Shown in pieces: positions 2,397-14,983 of a DNA stretch of 14,983 nt (the first letter of the stretch is position 1; every line of letters starts with the position of its first letter). The position numbers were made by a program, and so were the translations under genes. The notes below the pieces were generated by a model, which saw nothing but the letters and a program-made list of their open reading frames with translations, did no database searches and was not told where the DNA came from. Source of the DNA: Deltaproteobacteria bacterium RIFOXYA12_FULL_61_11 (GTDB lineage Bacteria; Bdellovibrionota_F; JAHFAK01; YA12-FULL-61-11); NCBI GenBank assembly GCA_001799195.1, contig MGSU01000065.1:1-14983 (forward strand), in the 5' to 3' direction.

Positions 2397-4334
2397 TCAC
2401 GGTCTCCGCGGGGTGCGGAGCCGACCGAGCAGCACGAGGGCGAGCAGAGCGAACAGCGCGCTTCCCCAAGAGACCATGGCCGCGGGTCCGAACGGGTTCC
2501 CGCCATTCCGGCTCGCTGCTCCGCAGATGCCTCCACCGCCCTCGCGGTTGCATTCGACCTCGGGAGGGCTCGTGTACTCACCCACCACCTCCACACCCAT
2601 GCGGTCGCAGTTGGAGAGGGTCTTGTCCACGTTCACGCAGAAATCGAATTCGTACCGCCCCTGGTAGTGCTTGGTAGGATCGGGGGTGAAATTGGCCACC
2701 TCGGTGCTGCTGTTGGCGATGGTCGGTTTGTTCTTGAGGTCTTTGTCGCGCGGCACCTGCACCGCTTTCCAAAGCTTCTTCAGTTCTGCCTTCTTGTAGC
2801 AGACCATGGCATCGAGGTTGGCCGGATCGTACGAGCCGGTAAGCACGATTTTCTGGTTGAGGCTGCCCGAGGTATCGCAACCGTTCTCACCCGCAACCGG
2901 TTGCGGCAGGTAACATTCGCTGCCGAACATGGCGGTATAGGTGGTGATGTAATCGTCTCCCTTGTCGTCTTGGAAATCGGATCTGCCCCACCAGAGCACG
3001 GTGCGCGTCCCGAGTACGTCGATCCCGTCCGCCCAGTGTTTGAAGACCCTGGCTTCGCGTTCTCCGGGGACGAGCAATTTGACCCAGTACTTGCCGATGC
3101 TGTGGCCTGTCCAGGCGATGGTTCCGTCATCGGCGATGGTCACCCGGTCGGCCTTCTCGTCGATGTGATTCACTTCTTCACCCGGGTTGGCGACCATGAC
3201 CTTGTCGCCCTGGGCCCAGACCACCGTGCCCTCGGCGTTGATCGCCGCGCTGTGCGGATCGGCGTCGAGGTGACGAACCTCGACCCTTGCGAGGATCTCG
3301 GCGATCTGCTCGTCCTCCCCCAGACCGGCAAACCCGGCGACCTCGGCCTCGGCGAGGGCCTCGGCGGTTTCATAGAAATCGTCGTACAGGATCTTGATCT
3401 TCCCGTCCCCCCACCAGAGCATGGTGCCGTTCGGGGTCACGTGGAGGTCGTCGAAGGACCCGTCGAAGGTCAGGATGCGCCGAGAATCGAGCTCCCGGTA
3501 CTCGGGGGGATCGTCGGAGGGATCGGTCTCGACCGTCTTCTCTTCCAGGAGCCCCGCCTTGAGGACGTTGATTTCACCCCCGCGGAAGCCGTGGTCGTAC
3601 CAGATCACGGTGTCGTCGGCGAGAAAGCGTACGTCCTCGACCGTGGTATCGATGCGGTAGGGCTTGGTGTCCTTGGCCTTGAGTAGGAAAAGCTTCTTTC
3701 CGAACACATTGTTCTGCCACCATATTGTGGTGCCGGCATCGGTCACCCGCACGGCAGAGGCATTCGCATCGAACTTGCAAAGCGTGAGATCGGCGCGGCC
3801 GAAGTCCTCGTCCTTGATGTCGCGGGTCTTGTTGTCCTTGAGATCTTTGACTTTTGCCGTCTTGGCGAGATCCGCGGGGATGATCTTGACCGAGTTGTCA
3901 AAGGTCCCGGAGAGGGTGCAGGCGATGGTGCCGTCACCACCGATCGAACAGTCGGTGGCGAGAATATCTGCCTTTTTGGTAATGGAGACGGAGGTGAGGG
4001 CCGTGGTCCCGGTGGTGGGGGAGGACCACTTGATGACCTTGTCGTTCTTGGAGTTGTCCACCAGCACCGCGGTGCCGTTGCTGCCGAACGAGATGGCATC
4101 ATAGGTGGCGCTGGTGGATATCTGCTTCACCTTGTCGGGTAGCTGGACGAAGATCTTCTTGCTGTCGTTCAAGGTGCGTTCAATGAACCAGTAGTTGCCG
4201 TCCGTCGTGCGAAAGGCCTTCTCGATCATGAACTCGTGCTTGCTCGGGTCGAAATCGAGCACCAACGGAGAATAGGCAGGGAGTGAGGTGGCCGTCACCA
4301 GGAACAGAACCGGCAGGAAGTGCAAGCGGCGCAT
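2397..4334 (-). CDS. Secreted beta-propeller-like protein with C-terminal Gly/Cys-TM-Arg sorting-type tail
   Basis: This 645-residue protein matches no family I can name. A signal peptide is clear (MRRLHFLPVLFLVTATSLPA, cleavage near residue 20). From about residue 45 to 450 a degenerate motif, hydrophobic strand then (D/N)GT-hydrophobic-W, recurs about nine times, near residues 46, 87, 135, 201, 242, 303, 369, 404 and 445. Spacings are 35-66 residues, as in a beta-propeller. A Cys-containing domain follows (residues 470-600, Cys at 474, 486, 512, 566, 576, 595). The C-terminus is a Gly/Cys stretch (GGGGICG, 600-606), a hydrophobic segment (about 618-637) and a basic end (RLRTPRRP). That arrangement resembles C-terminal sorting tails of the PEP-/MYXO-/Synerg-CTERM kind, and I cannot assign a named class. 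ATG 4334 has AAGGGGGG close upstream. A role at the cell surface is inferred; substrate and function are unknown. Confidence 0.8.
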   Translation of the reverse strand: MRRLHFLPVLFLVTATSLPAYSPLVLDFDPSKHEFMIEKAFRTTDGNYWFIERTLNDSKKIFVQLPDKVKQISTSATYDAISFGSNGTAVLVDNSKNDKVIKWSSPTTGTTALTSVSITKKADILATDCSIGGDGTIACTLSGTFDNSVKIIPADLAKTAKVKDLKDNKTRDIKDEDFGRADLTLCKFDANASAVRVTDAGTTIWWQNNVFGKKLFLLKAKDTKPYRIDTTVEDVRFLADDTVIWYDHGFRGGEINVLKAGLLEEKTVETDPSDDPPEYRELDSRRILTFDGSFDDLHVTPNGTMLWWGDGKIKILYDDFYETAEALAEAEVAGFAGLGEDEQIAEILARVEVRHLDADPHSAAINAEGTVVWAQGDKVMVANPGEEVNHIDEKADRVTIADDGTIAWTGHSIGKYWVKLLVPGEREARVFKHWADGIDVLGTRTVLWWGRSDFQDDKGDDYITTYTAMFGSECYLPQPVAGENGCDTSGSLNQKIVLTGSYDPANLDAMVCYKKAELKKLWKAVQVPRDKDLKNKPTIANSSTEVANFTPDPTKHYQGRYEFDFCVNVDKTLSNCDRMGVEVVGEYTSPPEVECNREGGGGICGAASRNGGNPFGPAAMVSWGSALFALLALVLLGRLRTPRRP

Positions 4335-4430: not shown

Positions 4431-5540
4431 TCAGAGTTCGGCCAGAGCGTCGAGCAGAGCGGTCAGGGCCACGTCCCTAGCCCCCCAACTCAAGACCTCC
4501 TCGCTGCGTCGCTTGGCCCCCTCGAGAGTCCACGAGCCGTACGCCTCGACCACGGCGGCCTTCAGCGCTGCACGGTCGGAGGGATCCACTCGGCGGGCCG
4601 AGGTGCCGAGGTATTCCCAGGCATGGGAGTGCTTGGTCAGCACGACCTCGCACCCCAGGGCCATGGCCTCGAGACTGACCTGCCCGATGGCTTCGACCCA
4701 ACTGGGCTGGACGTGGACCCGCGCGGCGAGAAAGGTCTCCGTATAGCGTTCCGCGGCGACCTCGGACAGGTGCGAGGCTCCCGGGAGAGTTTCGAGGGCT
4801 TTGCGGAAGGCTCGAACGTACCACCAGTGGAAGGGGTTGGGCCGCCCCAGGAACCTGGCCTCAAGACCAGTCCCGGCCAAGGCGTGAACCAGGGCGAGCT
4901 GATTCTTGAGGTCCTCGATCCGGCCGACCTGGAGCACGGCAGTCCCGCGACGACGGAGCTCGCGCCCGCGCCCTATCAGGCCCAAACGCTCGGGATTGAC
5001 GAAATTGGGCACCACCCGCAGCTTCCCGGGATCCAAGCCGGGGAAATCGGCCCGCAAACTCTCTCCCTCGGCGCGGCTCGAGCACAGCACGAACCGACAG
5101 GCCTCGAGCAATCGGACCTGACCACTGCGGTGACCCAGGATGACCTCCCGCAGAGCGCTACCTCGATGACGGTTGCCCCTGCACGCGCTGCTCAGCGAAC
5201 GCAGCCGTTCCATGCTTTCGATCTCCATCGACGACAGGAAGCGATAGGGCGGGAACCTCCCGCACCGGTGGTACAACTCCAGCGAGTGGTAGATCGGGAA
5301 CAACAGGACAGGTATCCCGAGCCTCTCGGCCGCCGAGAGGAGCAGGAGATGTTCGTGGACCACGTTGAGGTTGAACAGGAGGAGGACCCCTGCCGTGCGG
5401 AGCACTCTCGGATCCGGTCGTTCGAGGAGCTCGGCGGCAAACCCCTTGCTCGCGAGGAAGTCGCGGCATTCTCCGAGTTGCCACCCGTCCCCTCCCGGTT
5501 TCTTGCGCAGGTCGGAGCGGGCGAAGAGCAGGACCTTCAT
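4431..5540 (-). CDS. GT4-type (GT-B fold) glycosyltransferase
   Basis: This 369-residue cytoplasmic glycosyltransferase should transfer a sugar from a nucleotide-sugar to an envelope glycan or glycolipid. The N-terminal acceptor domain covers about residues 1-175. The C-terminal donor domain begins near VVPNFVNPERLGL (176-188), followed by VLQVGRIEDLKNQ (202-214) with the conserved Arg and Lys. VHVQPSWVEAIGQVSLEAMALGCEVV (275-300) contains the E-x7-E signature (Glu283 and Glu291) that defines family 4 type enzymes. Its ATG overlaps the stop of the VanZ-sulfatase fusion as ATGA, a sign of translational coupling, so the two products probably serve one pathway. The N-terminal Gly-Gly loop is KPGGDGWQ (14-21). 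No membrane segment is seen. Sugar and acceptor cannot be told. Confidence 0.88.
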   Translation of the reverse strand: MKVLLFARSDLRKKPGGDGWQLGECRDFLASKGFAAELLERPDPRVLRTAGVLLLFNLNVVHEHLLLLSAAERLGIPVLLFPIYHSLELYHRCGRFPPYRFLSSMEIESMERLRSLSSACRGNRHRGSALREVILGHRSGQVRLLEACRFVLCSSRAEGESLRADFPGLDPGKLRVVPNFVNPERLGLIGRGRELRRRGTAVLQVGRIEDLKNQLALVHALAGTGLEARFLGRPNPFHWWYVRAFRKALETLPGASHLSEVAAERYTETFLAARVHVQPSWVEAIGQVSLEAMALGCEVVLTKHSHAWEYLGTSARRVDPSDRAALKAAVVEAYGSWTLEGAKRRSEEVLSWGARDVALTALLDALAEL

Positions 5541-7777
5541 GGCAAGACCTCGGCAGGCGCGGGTTCAGGGGGGACGTGGACCTGGTACCAAGGCGAGGCG
5601 GCGCCGGTGCTCTCGACCACCAGGCGGAACCTCCAGGGATTGAACTGGAGCAATTCCCGGCGCAGCCCTTCGGAAAACGGCCCGAAGCGCTGACCCCCGC
5701 AATCGACTGCGAAGCCGCCGACCAGGTGCCGGTACCCGCTGCCGACCTCGTACTCCAGGCGGCAGGGTAGGCCGGGGGGAAGATTCCAGCGCAGCTCGAG
5801 CGTACCTTCGAAGAACGCGGCCTCGAGCGACGCGAGGTCGTTCTGCAACGCGGGAAACAGCCCCTCGCCTCCGGCCCCGGCCTTCGAGGCGCTCGTCGCG
5901 GCAAGCTCCGCGCTCAGCCGGCGATCGGCCTCGCGTTCTCCCTCGAGGAGCTTGAGCAGGTCGCCCGGCACGCCCAGGGTCGGCACCAGCTCGTCGCGCT
6001 CGGCCGGATCTGCGGCGAGATCGTAGTACTCGTAGGTGCGTACGCTCCCGCGTCGCAGCTCGAGCAACTTCCTGCGCCCGTGCAGGAGCATGGTCACCTG
6101 GTCGCCGTCACCCCGCCGTTGTTGATACCCTGCCCAGCTCGAGACGGCCAAGACCGGTGGAGACGGGCCCGCGTTCCGGCCTTCGAGCGCTCCGACCAGT
6201 GAACGCCCCTGGACCCTCGGGGTCCTGGCTCGAAGCCCCAAGAGTTCGAGTACGGTCGGGACGAGGTCGGCCTGGACAACCGTCTCGTCGATGCGCCGGG
6301 CCTCCCCAAACCACGGCACCCCGAGCAGCAAGGGGATGCGCACGACTTCTTCGTTGAGCTTCGCGGCCAGAGCAGTGGAAGCGTGCCCGAGATGGCCATG
6401 CTCGAACAGCTCTTCCCCGTGGTCCGCGGTCACCACCACCACGGTCCGTTCCTCCAGACCTTTGCGGCGCAGACAGGCCAGCACCTCGGCGAAAAAATCG
6501 TCCGCGGCCAGAACCTCGCCATCGTAGAGGTCCGAGATGCGGGTCTGTTCCTCAGGGGAGAAGGCGAAAACTCCGACCGGCAGGAGGACCTCCCGCTGCA
6601 CGGCCTCCACCCGCAGAGGCCTTCGGCTGCCGAAGCGGTCGTACTTCTCTCCTGGATCATAGGGCAGATGGACGTGTCGGTAGTGGTACCAGAGGAAGAA
6701 GGGTTCGGCCACCTCGTGCTCGAGCCATTCCACGACCAGGTTGGAGGTGCGGTCAGCCTCGAGCCTCCCGGCATAGTCGCCCCCCTCGGGATACCCCAAC
6801 CGACGGTAACCGGGGACAGAGGTCAGGTAGTTCAAATCGGGGAGCGCGTACCCGGCTTCGCTCAACACCTTCGGGAGGGCGCGCACCCCATCGGGCAGGT
6901 CGGTCTCGCGATCGGTCACCCCGTGGGCTCCGGGCCGCAGTCCGGTGAGCAGGCTAACCAAACCGGGCGCAGTCCAGGCCGAGTGTGCATAGGCCCGGGT
7001 GAACACCGCAGTCCGTGCCGCGAAGGAATCGAGGGCCGGGGACGTCGGGCGGGAATAGCCATAGCTCCCGAGGCGTGTCGGACGCAGGGCATCGACAGTG
7101 AGCAAGAGGAGGTTGGGCCGTTGCGGCGGCACCACGGTTGACGGCTCTTGGACCGGCATACGAGCCACAGCGAGCAGCCCTACCATGGCCGCAGCAGCCG
7201 CTAAGGTGGTAAGAGCGACCGAACGCCGCCAGCCCTTATCGCAGGAAAGCCCGCGCACGAGGGCAGCACCGAGCAATGCCGCAAGCAGGTTCAACAACAG
7301 ATCGGCAGGGTCGAACACCCGGTCGGGCACGAAGCACTGGAGACCTTCGTCGAAGAGGCCGAGCACTACGGCGAGTCCGAGCACGCCTCCGTCGCGCCAC
7401 GGCCGGTCAACTCCTGGCAACCCGCGATGCAGGGCCAGAACAAGGAGCCCGTATTCGAGGAAGTGGAAACGCTCTTCGGGCAGGTCATAGAGGAAGTACC
7501 CGAAGAGGTACAGCAGCCCGGTCGAGCTCAGTAGGGCCGGCGAGGGACGGAGCGTCGAGACGGCAGCTTCCCCCGGTGTGGCAAGGCGATGGAAGCGGGC
7601 GCTCAACCCGAGCAAGGCCACTAGCGCTGCCCCCCCGAGAAAAGCCCCGCCGATCAGAAGACCGAGCACTCCTTCCCGTCTCAGGCCATCGACCAGAGGG
7701 CGACCCAGCGGCACCATGGCCAGGATAAAGACCGCGAGCACAATGGCGGTCAGCAGCCAGAGCGTCCTACCGCTCAC
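5537..7777 (-). CDS. Membrane protein: N-terminal VanZ-like domain fused to a sulfatase/alkaline phosphatase-superfamily domain
   Basis: About 746 residues. The first 205 hold six or seven hydrophobic segments, including a VanZ-like module: HFLEY near 105-109, GLFDEGLQCFVPDR near 140-153, DPADLLLN near 156-163. A sulfatase-fold domain follows (about 221-535) and should face the periplasm. It has the first metal Asp in LLLTVDALRP (Asp229), a YHYRHVHLPYDP loop (His368, His370) and ADHGEELFEHGHLGH (Asp452, His453). At the nucleophile site the sequence is TAPGLVSLLTG (269-279): where sulfatases carry the Cys that becomes formylglycine (CxPSR) this protein has Thr, as in phosphoethanolamine transferases and LtaS-type enzymes. 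Phospho-transfer or hydrolysis is therefore likelier than sulfate ester cleavage (inference). The last 110 residues form an unassigned domain. The GTG at 7777 has AGGTGAGG just upstream; a TTG at 7792 is an alternative without one. It is coupled to GT4 by an ATGA overlap. Confidence 0.85.
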   Translation of the reverse strand: MSGRTLWLLTAIVLAVFILAMVPLGRPLVDGLRREGVLGLLIGGAFLGGAALVALLGLSARFHRLATPGEAAVSTLRPSPALLSSTGLLYLFGYFLYDLPEERFHFLEYGLLVLALHRGLPGVDRPWRDGGVLGLAVVLGLFDEGLQCFVPDRVFDPADLLLNLLAALLGAALVRGLSCDKGWRRSVALTTLAAAAAMVGLLAVARMPVQEPSTVVPPQRPNLLLLTVDALRPTRLGSYGYSRPTSPALDSFAARTAVFTRAYAHSAWTAPGLVSLLTGLRPGAHGVTDRETDLPDGVRALPKVLSEAGYALPDLNYLTSVPGYRRLGYPEGGDYAGRLEADRTSNLVVEWLEHEVAEPFFLWYHYRHVHLPYDPGEKYDRFGSRRPLRVEAVQREVLLPVGVFAFSPEEQTRISDLYDGEVLAADDFFAEVLACLRRKGLEERTVVVVTADHGEELFEHGHLGHASTALAAKLNEEVVRIPLLLGVPWFGEARRIDETVVQADLVPTVLELLGLRARTPRVQGRSLVGALEGRNAGPSPPVLAVSSWAGYQQRRGDGDQVTMLLHGRRKLLELRRGSVRTYEYYDLAADPAERDELVPTLGVPGDLLKLLEGEREADRRLSAELAATSASKAGAGGEGLFPALQNDLASLEAAFFEGTLELRWNLPPGLPCRLEYEVGSGYRHLVGGFAVDCGGQRFGPFSEGLRRELLQFNPWRFRLVVESTGAASPWYQVHVPPEPAPAEVLP

Positions 7778-7855
7778 ACCCTCACCTGGCAACGATCGAC
7801 TCGGTTGCTCGGAGGGGGAGGTCCCAGGGGCTTTGTCGGACAGAGGAACTCGGGT

Positions 7856-8493: not shown

Positions 8494-9255
8494 TCAGTTC
8501 CTCGCCGTTCCCCCTCCCGGAAGCCCGCCGGGCAGGGTAGGCACGCCGGCCCAAGACCCCCGTCGGCCGGGACGTTCGAGAGCGCCGGCCAAGGCGGCGA
8601 GGAACTGTCGCCGCGGAACCTCGACACTGCCGAGGGAACCAAGATGGGGGGTCGGGAGCTGGCAATCCAGGAGGAAGTACCCCCAGTGTTCGAGCCTCCG
8701 TACCAGGACGAACAAGGCAGCCTTGGAGGCATCCCGCTCCAGGTGGAACATGGATTCTCCGAAGAACCCTGCCCCGAGGGCCAAGCCGTAAAGCCCCCCG
8801 ACTAGGTCCTGGCCTCGGAAGACCTCGACGCTGTGGGCATACCCCACCTCATGGAGTACCGTGTAGGCCGCCTGCATCTCCACCGTGATCCAAGTGCCGA
8901 CCTGTCCCCCGCGGGGGACCATGGCGCAGGCCTTCATCACTCGCTCGAAACAGCGGTCGAAGGAGAAGGTCCAGCGGCCGGAGTTGAGCGCGCGACGCAC
9001 ACCGTGGTCGAGGCGCAGGGCCCCCGGCCAAAGCACCGCTCGAGGATCGGGGCTCCACCACATGATGCTCTCCCCGGGGCCGAACCAGGGGAAAATGCCG
9101 TGACCGTAAGCTTCCAGGAGCACGGAGGGAGCGAGGGTACCGCCGATCGCGAGCGGACCGTCCCGTGGCCCTGTGCGGGGATCCGGGAAGATGGTGCGCG
9201 GCAGGTGATCCTCCGACCACGGTTCCGGACCGTGGTCCTCGGCCAGGTCAGTCAC
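8494..9255 (-). CDS. aat: Leucyl/phenylalanyl-tRNA--protein transferase
   Basis: This cytosolic 253-residue enzyme transfers Leu or Phe from charged tRNA to proteins with N-terminal Arg or Lys, marking them for ClpS/ClpAP degradation by the N-degron pathway. Family signatures run in order: AYGHGIFPWF (49-58), WWSPDPRAVL (66-75), TWITVEMQAAYTVLHEVGYAHSVE (121-144), LVGGLYGLALGAGFFGESMF (151-170), ASKAAL (176-181) and LLDCQLPTPHLGSLGS (195-210). The C-terminus carries about 20 extra Gly/Pro/Arg-rich residues compared with the common length near 235. The start is GTG 9255, overlapping the dnaA stop as GTGA. The Shine-Dalgarno is weak, so translation probably depends on coupling to dnaA. No clpS or clpA is present in the window. 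Confidence 0.96.
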   Translation of the reverse strand: MTDLAEDHGPEPWSEDHLPRTIFPDPRTGPRDGPLAIGGTLAPSVLLEAYGHGIFPWFGPGESIMWWSPDPRAVLWPGALRLDHGVRRALNSGRWTFSFDRCFERVMKACAMVPRGGQVGTWITVEMQAAYTVLHEVGYAHSVEVFRGQDLVGGLYGLALGAGFFGESMFHLERDASKAALFVLVRRLEHWGYFLLDCQLPTPHLGSLGSVEVPRRQFLAALAGALERPGRRGSWAGVPTLPGGLPGGGTARN

Positions 9256-10622
9256 GGTATGAACTCGCGCTCGATGGCGAGCAAGGCGTTGCGCAGGTCC
9301 TCGTCCTGTTCGAGGTCCTCGAGGGCCTTGTCGCAGGCATGGATCACCGTGCTGTGATCCTTACCGCCGAATTTCGCCCCGAGCTCGGGATAGGACAAGC
9401 CGAGGTGTTTCCGACAGAGGAGCATGGCCATCCGCCGAGGCTCGGTGTATTTCCTCTTACGGCACTGAGAGCACAGGTCAGCCACTTTGATCCCGAAATA
9501 GCGAGCCACGCAGTCCTGGATCTTCTCGACGGTCACCTTCTCTTCGGCCTCGCGCAGGATCGACTGCAAAGCCTTCCGGGCAAGGTCCTCGGAGACCTCG
9601 ACACCGTGGAAGGAGGCATAGGCGAGCACCCTGGTCAGGGCCCCCTCGAGCTCCCGCACGTTGGAACGGACGCAGGAGGCGATGAAGGTCGAGACCTTGG
9701 AGTCGAGATGCACGCCCTCGCGCTGGGCCATGTTCTCGAGGATGGCGATCCGGGTCTCGAGCTCGGGCGGCGAGATGTCGACGATCAGGCCATGCGCGAA
9801 GCGGGTCCTGATGCGCTCCTCGAAGGCTCCGATCTCGGCGGGGGGTTTATCGGAGGTGAGCACGACGAGTTTGCTGGCGGCAGTCAGGCTATTGAAAGTA
9901 TGAAAAAATTCCTCGAGAGTGCCGGTTTTTCCGGCCAGGAACTGGATATCGTCGACGAGCAGGACATCGCACTGTTCTCGGTACTTGCGCCGGAATTCCT
10001 CCATGTTGTGGGTGCGCACCTGGGCAATGAACTCGTTGGTGAACTTCTCGGCCGTGACCACGCTGATGGTCGCGGATGTGTCCTGTTCGTGGATGAAGTG
10101 GCCGATAGCCGTGAGTAGATGCGTCTTCCCCAACCCGGAACCCGCTGCGATGAAGAGGGGGTTGTACCTCTCCCCGGGTTTTTCCGCGCAGGCCCGGCAG
10201 GCATTGTACGCGAACTGGTTGCTCTTGCCCTCGACGAAATTCTCGAAGGTGTGCCGTGGATTGACCGCCCCGAGGAGTACCCCGGTGGCTCGCTTGCCCG
10301 ATTTCGCCACCTGTGGAGGCTCAGGCGGCGGCAACAGCTCGGCCTCAGGCTCTACGGGCAGCTTGAGCTCAGGGTTGACCCTGAAGATGAGATGCGGGGT
10401 GAGATTTAATATCTCTTTGAAATGTTTGTAAAATATGTCGTAATAATGATTATCGAGGTGATCCCGGAAGAACTGGTTGGCCACCTCGAGCACGATCTTG
10501 CTGTCCCCTATCTCAGCCAACCGGATCCGGCCGAGCCACACGTTGAGTTGCTGCGACTTCTCGTGTTCCTGGATGCTGGTGACGACCATCTGCCAAATCT
10601 GGTCTTCTCGGCGTTCACTCAT
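9252..10622 (-). CDS. dnaA: Chromosomal replication initiator protein DnaA
   Basis: This 456-residue AAA+ ATPase binds DnaA boxes at oriC, opens the duplex and loads helicase. Domain I (1-80) begins MSERREDQIWQMV. A short Pro/Glu-rich domain II (about 85-115) follows. The AAA+ core begins NPRHTFENFVEGKSNQFAYNA (121-141). Walker A is AGSGLGKTHLL (160-170), with Ala where the first Gly is usual. Walker B is LLVDDIQFL (221-229), and FEERIRTRF (267-275) holds the Arg finger/sensor region. Domain IV has the signature KDHSTVIHA (421-429). Unusual are Cys384 and Cys387 (CSQC) at the start of domain IV, where Arg/Ser-rich sequence is common. ATG 10622 is chosen for its match to DnaA N-termini and total length; an in-frame extension to 10868 has no homology-like sequence. 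The Shine-Dalgarno (AGGAA) is rather far from it. No dnaN, gyrB or DnaA-box cluster lies nearby. Confidence 0.97.
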   Translation of the reverse strand: MSERREDQIWQMVVTSIQEHEKSQQLNVWLGRIRLAEIGDSKIVLEVANQFFRDHLDNHYYDIFYKHFKEILNLTPHLIFRVNPELKLPVEPEAELLPPPEPPQVAKSGKRATGVLLGAVNPRHTFENFVEGKSNQFAYNACRACAEKPGERYNPLFIAAGSGLGKTHLLTAIGHFIHEQDTSATISVVTAEKFTNEFIAQVRTHNMEEFRRKYREQCDVLLVDDIQFLAGKTGTLEEFFHTFNSLTAASKLVVLTSDKPPAEIGAFEERIRTRFAHGLIVDISPPELETRIAILENMAQREGVHLDSKVSTFIASCVRSNVRELEGALTRVLAYASFHGVEVSEDLARKALQSILREAEEKVTVEKIQDCVARYFGIKVADLCSQCRKRKYTEPRRMAMLLCRKHLGLSYPELGAKFGGKDHSTVIHACDKALEDLEQDEDLRNALLAIEREFIP

Positions 10623-10879
10623 GGACTGGTACCGTTCCTGCTGACTTTCGTCGGAGGCATCGCGCTGCCGCGGAGGGCCCATATCCAGCGCAACCGTCGA
10701 GAAAAGGCAAGCAGGAAAATCGACCATTGCCACGCCAATGCCTTGCCCCCGGCCGCGCCCCCTCGTCCCGGCCCTCCGGACGAAAAATCCTGTGGCACAG
10801 GACGCTTTCTGCCGATAGGTATTCTGAGGACGAGGACCGCGACACGGACGCGCGGCGAGAACCACCACGGAGGATGACC
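10623..10879. other. Divergent region between dnaA and the 47-residue gene
   Basis: These 257 bp hold the promoters of dnaA (minus) and the small gene (plus). No canonical DnaA box (TTATCCACA) was found on either strand, so it does not look like oriC. Its clearest elements are a 15-bp perfect palindrome at 10788-10802 and a TATTCT hexamer at 10820 that could serve as a weak plus-strand -10. A 6-bp hairpin at 10763-10783 is followed by A-residues, not T-residues, on the plus strand. Confidence 0.45.
10788..10802. promoter_or_regulatory. 15-bp perfect palindrome TCCTGTGGCACAGGA, candidate operator
   Basis: Seven-base arms (TCCTGTG / CACAGGA) flank a single central G. It lies 165 bp from the dnaA start and 78 bp from the start of the small plus-strand gene, within the shared divergent promoter region. 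It contains CTGT and ACAG, but the spacing is too short for an E. coli-type LexA box. It could be the site of a dimeric regulator of dnaA, of the small gene, or of both. Confidence 0.4.
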
Positions 10880-11023
10880 ATGCACGACGAGAAGACGGTA
10901 CCCAAGACCCCTGAGAAAAAGACCATCGCCATCGGGTCGCTCGACCTATGGAACACCCTGTTCATGGCCGTGCACTTCCCGGAGACCATTAAAACCATCC
11001 GCGCGACCACGCCGACCACCTGA
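10880..11023 (+). CDS. Small protein of 47 residues, unknown function
   Basis: This short gene has a strong Shine-Dalgarno (GGAGG at 10869-10873, 6 nt from ATG 10880; ATG 10874 is an alternative adding two residues). Codon use is as GC-rich at third positions as the neighbours. The product begins with a Lys/Glu/Pro-rich segment (MHDEKTVPKTPEKK), continues with a hydrophobic, possibly amphipathic stretch (IAIGSLDLWNTLFMAVHF), then PETIKTIR and a Thr/Pro tail. There is no signal peptide and the hydrophobic part is probably too short and polar for a full membrane span, though surface membrane binding is possible. It diverges from dnaA. I do not recognise the family. Coding status rests on the ribosome binding site and codon use. 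Confidence 0.55.
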   Translation: MHDEKTVPKTPEKKTIAIGSLDLWNTLFMAVHFPETIKTIRATTPTT

Positions 11024-11319: not shown

Positions 11320-11350
11320 CGTTCCTATTTGTTGCGTGAAGGGGGAAACC

Positions 11351-14300
11351 ATGCACTCACTTCGTTCCCACCAATCTTTCCTTATCATCGCCTTAGCAGC
11401 CTTCTTCCTGCTGTTCCTCGGGTGTTCCTCGAGCGGCGGAGGTAAGACCGACGATCCGAGCGCCGACCCCTCGGATCCGACCAATCCGATCACCGATCCG
11501 ACCGACCCGGGTACCGATCCGACCGACCCGACCGATCCGGGCACCGACCCGACCGACCCGGGCACCGACCCGGCCGATCCCGGTGATCAGACCGACAACA
11601 CCGACCCGACCGACCCCGGCACCGATCCCGGCACCGATCCCGGCACCGATCCCGGCACCGATCCGAACAGCCAAGCCCTGACCGTCACCGAGAACTACTT
11701 CAACGTCGAGGCCAATAACTACGAAGAGCAGTTCTGCCGCTTCGCGGCCAATCAGGCTCTGACGAAGATGGGCTTCGCCCGCATCGGCAACGCGAACACC
11801 AACCCGGCAGCCCTGATCACCAACCTGAGCGTGGCCCTCGAAGCCGTTACCGAAGAAGTCAGCCTGACTTTCAACGACCCCTCGGTCGACTCGAAAGAAC
11901 GCAACGTCACCAAGAGTGTCGAGGTCCGTTTCGAGGTCCGCACCGACAATCACCCGGCCATCAATCAGGCAGGCATCGTCACCCGGCCGCCCTACGGCTC
12001 CGCTCCCGCCACCGGCACCGTGCGCGTGGTGGCCTGGACCTGCGCCGGCGGCTCCACCTACCGTGACTTCGAAATCACGGTTCCGGCCGCGACCCTGGTG
12101 GGGGACACCACCCTGCTCACCGACAGCATCGTGGTCTTCGACCCGGCCGGTTACCAGATCCTGCAAAACCAAGCGGGCGAGTACCAGGTCTCGCGCACCA
12201 CGAAGAACATCGGGGTCATGGCCCTGGCCAACGCCCCCGGCGCCCACGTCGAGATCAATTACGCCGGCGGCGGACACATCGCCGATCCGTACACCATTCC
12301 TATCGTCTATGACGGTACCACCCAGCTCGAACTGGTCGTCGTGGCCCAGGACGGCACCCGCGGCGCTACTCCCTACACCATCACCGTGGTCCACACCGCA
12401 GCAGACGGCCTGCCGGTCGCCGAGGACAGCGTGATCATCGCCAGCAGCAACGTGCGCACCGAGTACAACTGGCGCGTCGCCCTGCACGATAACGACGAGA
12501 ACGCCGACGGTTCGCCGTTGGACGCCGGTTTTTTCAATGATGAAGCCAACACCAACACCCCGCGGCTGCGCATCCAGGTGACGGGCACGACCTTCGTGAA
12601 GGAGGTCAACGCCGAGGAATTCATCGTCAGCGGCCTCACCGGCAGCGGCATGAAGGTCCAGGACCGCGAGGGCATCAGCCGCATCTCCGAGGACACCGTG
12701 GAGATCCTGCTGGTGGCCGACGGCGAAGACGAGTACCACACCAACTTCTGGGACACCGACGCCCAGACCAATTGGCCGGACTACGGCGACAAGAACGTGA
12801 CCATGAACGTCGCGATCAGCGCCAACCAGTTCATGGACCGCCTGGTCCGCACGGTCAGCTACACCTTCCAGGGCTATGACGAGCAGCCGGTCCTGACCTG
12901 GCGCCTCGACGTCAGCGGCGACACCCAGGTTGTCCGGGCCACAGACCGCGACGGCATCCTCAACCACGAGTGGCTGCGTCTGACCCTGCCGCAGGGCAAC
13001 CCGCTGGAGCGCTTCGAGGTCAACACGGACAACGCGGCCGAGAACGTGCCCATGGAGACCCTGACCACGGCCCAGCTCTTCAACGATCTGGCCTCAGCAG
13101 AGGACGCGGTCAATTACCGCATCCTGGTCGTGGCCAAGGGCGACGACCCGACCGATCCGCTCGACCTCGTCAACCTGGACTACGGCATCGACGAGACTCC
13201 TCGCGGGGTCGGCATCGACGAGGACGATGAAGGCTTGGCCCGCTGGGTCGACCTCGAGATCGACTGGGACGGCACGCAGATCGAAGAAGACCTCGACTTC
13301 TACGTCGAGGCCTACGGCCAGATCTTCCAGTTCAGCCAGAAGGACGAGCTCTCGACCAAGGCCGAGTTCGTCCACGTGAAGGAACTGACCATCGTGATCA
13401 ACAACTTCGAGCACACCCTCGACGGCGCTATCGTCACGGCGACCCTCGAGGAAGCCGTTTCCAACCGCTACTTCTTCGACGTCGAGGTGGTGCTCCCAGA
13501 CGGCGAGTGGCAGTTCACCGGCAACGCCATCGACCTGTACGGCATCCGCAGCTTCTCCTGGGACGACGACGACGGCCACAAGTACTGGGTTTTTGCCGAC
13601 GACGTCGAGTTCATCGATGACAAGACGGTCGAAATCCAGGTCCAGTGGGACGGCACGGACATCGACACGGAATATCTTGAGAAGGCCGACCTGACCCTGC
13701 ACCTCTTCGACGGCGACAACGACGATGAGATCGAGGGGCTCAACCTCGACGATCCCAACGACGAGACCAAGGTCTACGACGAGGAGATTCTCGGCCCGGC
13801 CGAGTCCAACCTAGCCACGGGCATCACCTCCAACACCATCGACCTCACCCCGCAGCCTGAGACCCTGGTGGTGCGGCTGCTCAACCGCCACAGCGCGGTG
13901 GTCAACCTGGGCGAGGAGAACATCGACACCCTGGCCAATGGCGAGTGCCTCATCGACGAGGACACCTTCGGCCAGGCCGACTGCGGTTACGAGGAACTGG
14001 ACAACGGCCAGCTCCAGATGATCTTCGTCGAGGCCCGCCTGACCGGCGCGATCTGGACCGAGACCGCGGCCAACACGCCTAACTACTTCGACCTGTTCAT
14101 CAACAAGGTCGACGCCTCGGACGACCTCTATCCCACCCCGGGCTTCACCATCGACTCCGTGTCCCGCATCAGCGATGAGGTCATGGAGGTGCGGGTGATC
14201 GGCTCGACCACGGACTGGGACGAGGACTTCCAACTCGTGCTCGGTGTCGACGGCCGCGCCATCCGCCACGACGGTTGGGTGGATGATGATCACATCGTGG

Positions 14301-14983
14301 ACAAGGGACACGCCGCCGACCCGCTGGGCGACGAGGTGCTGAAGATCAGCAACGACGTCTACCGCACCCTCGACGACGATGGCGACCTCTACGCCTCCAG
14401 CGCCACCCTGACCTTCACCGCGGTGCGCGAGGGCATCACCCTGACCCCGGCCCTGGTCAGCGAGAAGGCGCTCAAGGACGATCCGGCTCAGACCGGCGCC
14501 AGCCTGACCCTGGCCATCACCAACGACAAGTGGGCCAACGGCCTTAACATCAACCAGTTCACCCTGGTTACGGCCACGACCATGACCGGCACCGCGGTCA
14601 ACGACTGCCCGGCCGGCATCGGCGTGCCGGTGTCCGGCGTGGTCCTGGGCGTGGGCGGCGGCACCCTCGAGCTCGAACCCTCGCAGGATCTCAGCACCAT
14701 GGAACTGAAGAACCTCGCGTTGAACTTCCGAGTCACCTGGGACAGCATCAACGGCGACGTGGACTCGCCCAATCCGACCAACGGCTTCGTCTCGTCGGAC
14801 GGCATCATCCATTTGCAGCTCAAGGTCTCGGCTGCGGCTATGCAGGACAACGAGAGCGATCTCCTGTCGATCAACAAGCTGCAGATCCAGGTCGTGGATG
14901 AGTATATCGCCGTGGTGAACGCTGCCCTGGCCGAGAAGGGCCTGGACACCGCCTTCCGCGAGAGCGACGACGGCACCAAGATG
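11351..14983 (+). CDS. Very large acidic modular surface lipoprotein, partial at the 3' end
   Basis: The frame from ATG 11351 stays open for 1211 codons to the window edge, so the C-terminus is missing. GAAGGGGG lies 5 nt before the ATG. Residues 1-24 are a lipoprotein-type signal (hydrophobic ALAAFFLLFLG then Cys25); Phe and Leu at -3 and -2 make the lipobox slightly atypical. Residues 34-105 are a (T/S)DP(G/T)TDP repeat, an acidic stalk. A domain at about 265-350 (AGEYQVS..., ELVVVAQDGTRGATPYTITVVH) resembles the cadherin-like beta-sandwich domain (PF12733). From about 440 a strand motif of the form G(I/L)xxIS-x-DTVEI recurs near residues 450, 542, 633, 760 and 945, suggesting diverged Ig-size modules. 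Asp/Glu are very abundant (for example DGDNDDEIEGLNLDDPNDE near 705-735), which may bind Ca2+. Codon use is strongly biased to ACC, GAC, CTG. A surface adhesin or structural role is inferred, not shown. Confidence 0.88.
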   Translation, partial: MHSLRSHQSFLIIALAAFFLLFLGCSSSGGGKTDDPSADPSDPTNPITDPTDPGTDPTDPTDPGTDPTDPGTDPADPGDQTDNTDPTDPGTDPGTDPGTDPGTDPNSQALTVTENYFNVEANNYEEQFCRFAANQALTKMGFARIGNANTNPAALITNLSVALEAVTEEVSLTFNDPSVDSKERNVTKSVEVRFEVRTDNHPAINQAGIVTRPPYGSAPATGTVRVVAWTCAGGSTYRDFEITVPAATLVGDTTLLTDSIVVFDPAGYQILQNQAGEYQVSRTTKNIGVMALANAPGAHVEINYAGGGHIADPYTIPIVYDGTTQLELVVVAQDGTRGATPYTITVVHTAADGLPVAEDSVIIASSNVRTEYNWRVALHDNDENADGSPLDAGFFNDEANTNTPRLRIQVTGTTFVKEVNAEEFIVSGLTGSGMKVQDREGISRISEDTVEILLVADGEDEYHTNFWDTDAQTNWPDYGDKNVTMNVAISANQFMDRLVRTVSYTFQGYDEQPVLTWRLDVSGDTQVVRATDRDGILNHEWLRLTLPQGNPLERFEVNTDNAAENVPMETLTTAQLFNDLASAEDAVNYRILVVAKGDDPTDPLDLVNLDYGIDETPRGVGIDEDDEGLARWVDLEIDWDGTQIEEDLDFYVEAYGQIFQFSQKDELSTKAEFVHVKELTIVINNFEHTLDGAIVTATLEEAVSNRYFFDVEVVLPDGEWQFTGNAIDLYGIRSFSWDDDDGHKYWVFADDVEFIDDKTVEIQVQWDGTDIDTEYLEKADLTLHLFDGDNDDEIEGLNLDDPNDETKVYDEEILGPAESNLATGITSNTIDLTPQPETLVVRLLNRHSAVVNLGEENIDTLANGECLIDEDTFGQADCGYEELDNGQLQMIFVEARLTGAIWTETAANTPNYFDLFINKVDASDDLYPTPGFTIDSVSRISDEVMEVRVIGSTTDWDEDFQLVLGVDGRAIRHDGWVDDDHIVDKGHAADPLGDEVLKISNDVYRTLDDDGDLYASSATLTFTAVREGITLTPALVSEKALKDDPAQTGASLTLAITNDKWANGLNINQFTLVTATTMTGTAVNDCPAGIGVPVSGVVLGVGGGTLELEPSQDLSTMELKNLALNFRVTWDSINGDVDSPNPTNGFVSSDGIIHLQLKVSAAAMQDNESDLLSINKLQIQVVDEYIAVVNAALAEKGLDTAFRESDDGTKM
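11450..11665 (+). repeat. Coding tandem repeat of Asp-Pro units, ending in four 12-bp copies
   Basis: The DNA encodes some 70 residues built from TDP, TDPG and SDP units. The last part (11618-11665) is four near-identical copies of GGCACCGATCCC, differing only in the final base of the last copy. All units are multiples of three, so slippage would change the stalk length without breaking the frame. Confidence 0.85.

Follow-up and report, generated by a model that had tools for sequence, protein, structure and literature searches.

A truncated gene for a large acidic surface lipoprotein with a stalk, a cadherin-like domain and repeated beta modules, predicted from a contig of a barely sampled bacterial phylum

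The plus-strand frame at the end of contig C65 is, judged by its composition and recognisable parts, a genuine coding gene for a large modular surface lipoprotein, truncated at its 3' end. Contig C65 forms the entire window analysed here (14,983 nucleotides), and belongs to a draft genome of 4.64 Mb in 342 contigs. The true stop of the gene is beyond reach because the window is the complete contig, and the assembly cuts the protein; no contig overlapping the end of C65 was found when the genome was searched with its last 120 bases. The reading as a large surface lipoprotein with a stalk, a cadherin-like domain and repeated beta modules, proposed in the initial annotation, is supported by the predicted lipobox, the stalk, the PF12733 match and the module repeats. 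The protein is probably a rod of Ig-like modules, anchored by lipid and used for display or adhesion. The features are listed in Table 1.

Table 1. Features of the lipoprotein gene and of its opposite strand (positions in the window, residues of the plus-frame translation)
Feature	Position	Strand	Basis
Large acidic lipoprotein gene, 1211 codons present, 3' end cut at the contig end	11351..14983	+	Open frame, codon log-odds, GC3, window = whole contig
Shine-Dalgarno-like AGGGGG, 5 bases upstream of the ATG	11340..11345	+	Read from sequence
Predicted lipoprotein signal peptide, residues 1-24, and lipobox Cys25 (LFLG/C)	11351..11425	+	Direct reading of the translation
Asp/Pro/Thr/Gly stalk, residues 33-107 (TDPG/TDP)	11447..11671	+	Tandem repeats in DNA
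N-terminal domain, residues 108-250, weak aBig_2-like end at 198-246	11672..12100	+	Profile match
Cadherin-like beta sandwich (PF12733), residues 278-347	12182..12391	+	Pfam profile match, alignment with other members
Candidate module M1, residues 351-506, motif GISRISEDTVEILLVADGED at 441	12401..12868	+	Self-comparison; weak profile match, hhalign score 15.2
Candidate module M2, residues 507-665, motif WVDLEIDWDGTQIEED at 632	12869..13345	+	Self-comparison; weak profile match, score 19.5
Module M3, residues 666-834, motif DDKTVEIQVQWDGTDIDTE at 756	13346..13858	+	G317 repeat profile match, score 36.4, probability 87%
Module M4, residues 837-1025, motif SVSRISDEVMEVRVIGSTTDWDED at 936	13859..14425	+	G317 repeat profile match, score 30.6, probability 73%
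Candidate module M5, residues 1026-1178	14426..14884	+	Self-comparison alone; profile score 12.4, not significant
Antisense shadow frame, not a gene	11393..12967	-	Mirrored GC-by-position, lower codon log-odds, length as in codon shuffling, no Pfam match
Antisense shadow frame, not a gene	13811..14983	-	GC-by-position, no Pfam match, codon shuffling

The open reading frame list and the translation both gave a frame without a stop from the ATG at 11351 to the contig end, and the chance of a stop-free run of this length at this base composition is about 4e-15. The GC content by codon position is 0.62/0.40/0.89 (GC3 0.89). Codon log-odds, calculated with a table built from the Pfam-supported neighbour genes, reached 0.38 bits per codon, compared with 0.32 for dnaA; the codon use is as strong as that of dnaA. 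The open frame and the Shine-Dalgarno site described initially were both confirmed, the former with a strong coding composition.

The neighbouring genes include dnaA (9252-10868) and aat (8494-9255), which lie on the minus strand with a 4-base overlap and are divergent from the lipoprotein gene. Between dnaA and the lipoprotein gene is a short plus-strand frame of 47 codons (10880-11023). A replication origin in this interval was considered and rejected, as DnaA-box-like sites were no more frequent than expected by chance. Further upstream, a minus-strand frame of 751 amino acids (5537-7792) carries a sulfatase domain after a VanZ-like membrane part; the two are probably fused into one function or are two functions joined together. 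Another minus-strand frame (2397-4334, 645 amino acids) has a signal-peptide-like start and good coding composition (0.30 bits per codon), and no Pfam or NCBIfam match was found for it.

Judged by eye, the N-terminal region MHSLRSHQSFLIIALAAFFLLFLGC fits the relaxed form of the lipobox rule, with F at -3 and G at -1, and the predicted lipoprotein signal was borne out on reading the translation (LFLGC). The repeat stalk was also recovered as described; its DNA is a tandem repeat with units of 9, 12, 21 and 30 bases. The aBig_2 match in the following domain is weak (E=0.0073, 16.5 bits, under the 27-bit cut-off). The cadherin-like domain was found as a weak PF12733 match: the hmmscan of the whole protein gave E=3e-4 and 21.5 bits, which is under the cut-off of 24.2 bits, and the genome search gave 28.2 bits, which is above it. 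Positions shared with four other PF12733 members are visible in the alignment, and the profile comparison of this single domain with the same four members was weak (probability 15%).

The protein is acidic, as had been noted, with a pI of 4.05 and a D+E content of 19-25% over residues 350 to 1000. From residue 350 onward, five stretches were cut by eye, each carrying a strand motif of the VEIQVQWDGTDID type. The recurring motif reported initially is real but modest. Self-alignment, suggested as a way to define module length, gave a significant result for the best set of four copies (reached by 0.7-2.7% of shuffles) but not for any single ungapped pair (the best was reached by 14% of shuffles). 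The modules differ strongly from one another. AlphaFold2 models made without an alignment had a mean pLDDT of 38 and 34; residues 664-1027 were mostly strands, which is unreliable at this confidence.

The search of 386 genomes with the five-module profile revealed two places in one frame of 2544 amino acids (L113) in the genome G317, with E=4.7e-4 and 3e-3. The bacterium is distant, and the protein encoded by this frame is secreted and modular, containing cadherin domains and a dockerin. It contains a repeat of about 100 residues in about a dozen copies (L113 1100-8731, minus strand), which has no Pfam name and is uncommon in the genomes sampled (3 of 366). Profile-profile comparison between the G317 repeats and the lipoprotein modules gave a probability of 91.5% over 71 columns. 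The hhalign score of the module set was 40, compared with a maximum of 20 for 150 column-shuffled controls and 11 for the cadherin-like alignment. When the modules were taken singly, M3 and M4 held, with a collinear match that beats the shuffled controls; M1, M2 and M5 were within the control range (scores in Table 1). In the reciprocal direction, the HMM of the G317 repeats gave 12.6 bits for the lipoprotein and at most 8.8 bits for 300 locally shuffled copies, a test that is partly selected, since G317 had been picked for giving the best match among the 386 genomes, where about 0.2 such matches are expected by chance at E=4.7e-4. Despite this selection, two separate repeats of the same G317 protein were matched. 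At the level of sequence profiles, M3 and M4 (about residues 666-1025) were shown to belong to the Pfam-unassigned repeat type of the G317 protein. Two other genomes, G114 and G222, also matched the module profile (E about 0.04). These matches were attributed to chance, and no such repeats were seen on reading the G114 frame. The L113 repeat of about 100 residues may itself deserve a new domain entry.

No homologue of the lipoprotein was found in 59 genomes, nor subsequently in 386 (its own included), and none was found in the one other genome of the phylum searched or in species contigs, plasmids or viral contigs. Matches in PHROGs, NCBIfam and PDB did not rise above chance level. The organism stands isolated: over its main part, the DnaA shares no more than 43% identity with any entry listed, and a few partial matches reach 48%. 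The negative homologue search is therefore a poor guide to how widely the family occurs. A match of the stalk alone on contig C229 (E=0.007) was rejected as low complexity rather than homology. Contig C229, from the same genome, carries a lipoprotein-like frame (L004 1-1755, minus strand) that has a stalk of Ser/Asp/Pro and consecutive ALPAS pentapeptides.

The initial annotation also suggested that the whole protein may be an undescribed architecture. This stands only in so far as no full-length homologue was found; the literature searched yielded no description of the architecture. It does not stand for the parts, as a similar front half occurs twice in G001, the only other genome of the class searched, and M3 and M4 match the G317 repeat. 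The lipoprotein combines in a new way parts whose kinds are already known and are common in bacterial surface proteins; it does not represent a new kind.

In the proposed rod, the signal peptide would send the protein to lipoprotein processing, and Cys25 would be lipidated. The protein would be located at the surface, where the stalk of about 75 residues may keep the folded part off the membrane. Beyond the stalk would come a beta domain, then the cadherin-like sandwich, then as many as five acidic modules, each about 150-190 residues long and presumably with an Ig-like fold. The rod is probably stiffened by Ca2+ bound to its Asp-rich loops (DGTDID, DDDDGH and LDDDGD). It likely serves in adhesion or display, with a surface, a glycan or another cell as the binding partner. 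It is a tentative suggestion that the acidic modules represent a Pfam-unassigned beta-sandwich family across distant bacteria, used here in a lipid-anchored, calcium-stiffened adhesin rod of a barely sampled phylum.

The opposite strand was considered as the coding strand, with the plus frame as its shadow. Several long minus-strand frames, which had been flagged as liable to mislead annotation, do exist: three lie opposite the lipoprotein gene, all interrupted by stops. Their GC-by-codon-position pattern mirrors that of the plus gene, and no Pfam domain was matched in them; the lipobox, the stalk and the Pfam match were found on the plus strand only. Their codon log-odds are 0.12, 0.37 and 0.21 bits per codon, compared with 0.38 for the plus gene. 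In the short minus frame at 13094-13702 the value matches that of the plus gene; the plus frame was higher in each stretch tested. The longest antisense stop-free run was 566 codons, compared with a mean of 554 in the same frame after codon shuffling of the plus gene. The minus frames are regarded as shadows because the codon-shuffled plus gene yields equal lengths. Minus-strand genes, already refuted on composition, have a negligible probability.

Two other readings accept the plus gene. The contig ends within the gene, and the missing C-terminus could hold a catalytic or sorting domain; the protein might accordingly be a large secreted or surface enzyme, of which the modules present are the anchor and a carbohydrate-binding or spacer region. 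The most similar modular protein found, that of G317, has an N-terminal region with weak M10-like metalloprotease matches as well as the dockerin. However, no catalytic domain or enzyme family was found in the 1211 residues present, and the class relatives in G001 terminate in repeats, of the FG-GAP type in the protein that was scanned, which makes an enzyme unlikely. The strong divergence among the modules and the lack of a detected homologue would also fit a decayed or fast-evolving lineage-specific lipoprotein that has no binding function of its own, such as a structural coat component. This is improbable, since the frame is intact over its whole length and its codon use is as strong as that of dnaA.

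With this lipoprotein, a barely sampled phylum gains one surface protein, and a Pfam-less repeat module comes to light that is shared with the modular secreted protein of a distant bacterium; the general picture does not change. Compared with the PF12733 family, the lipoprotein domain covers profile positions 20-87 of 89; it scores low and has an insertion of a few residues ahead of the last strands. The two best PF12733 proteins of G001 (L096 and L102) have, like the lipoprotein, a lipobox-like signal, an acidic low-complexity stalk, one or more further domains and a single PF12733 domain in the middle of the protein. However, their stalks are rich in Thr/Glu/Ser instead of TDP, another domain precedes the cadherin-like one, and the C-terminal half is different; the one scanned by Pfam has one cadherin-like domain and seven FG-GAP repeats (PF14312). 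The G317 protein shares the repeat that resembles M3 and M4, and also contains cadherin domains; it has no recognised stalk or lipobox and carries true Cadherin (PF00028), dockerin and FlgD-like domains. Moreover, its repeats are far more alike than the lipoprotein modules, with 54-67% to the first repeat.
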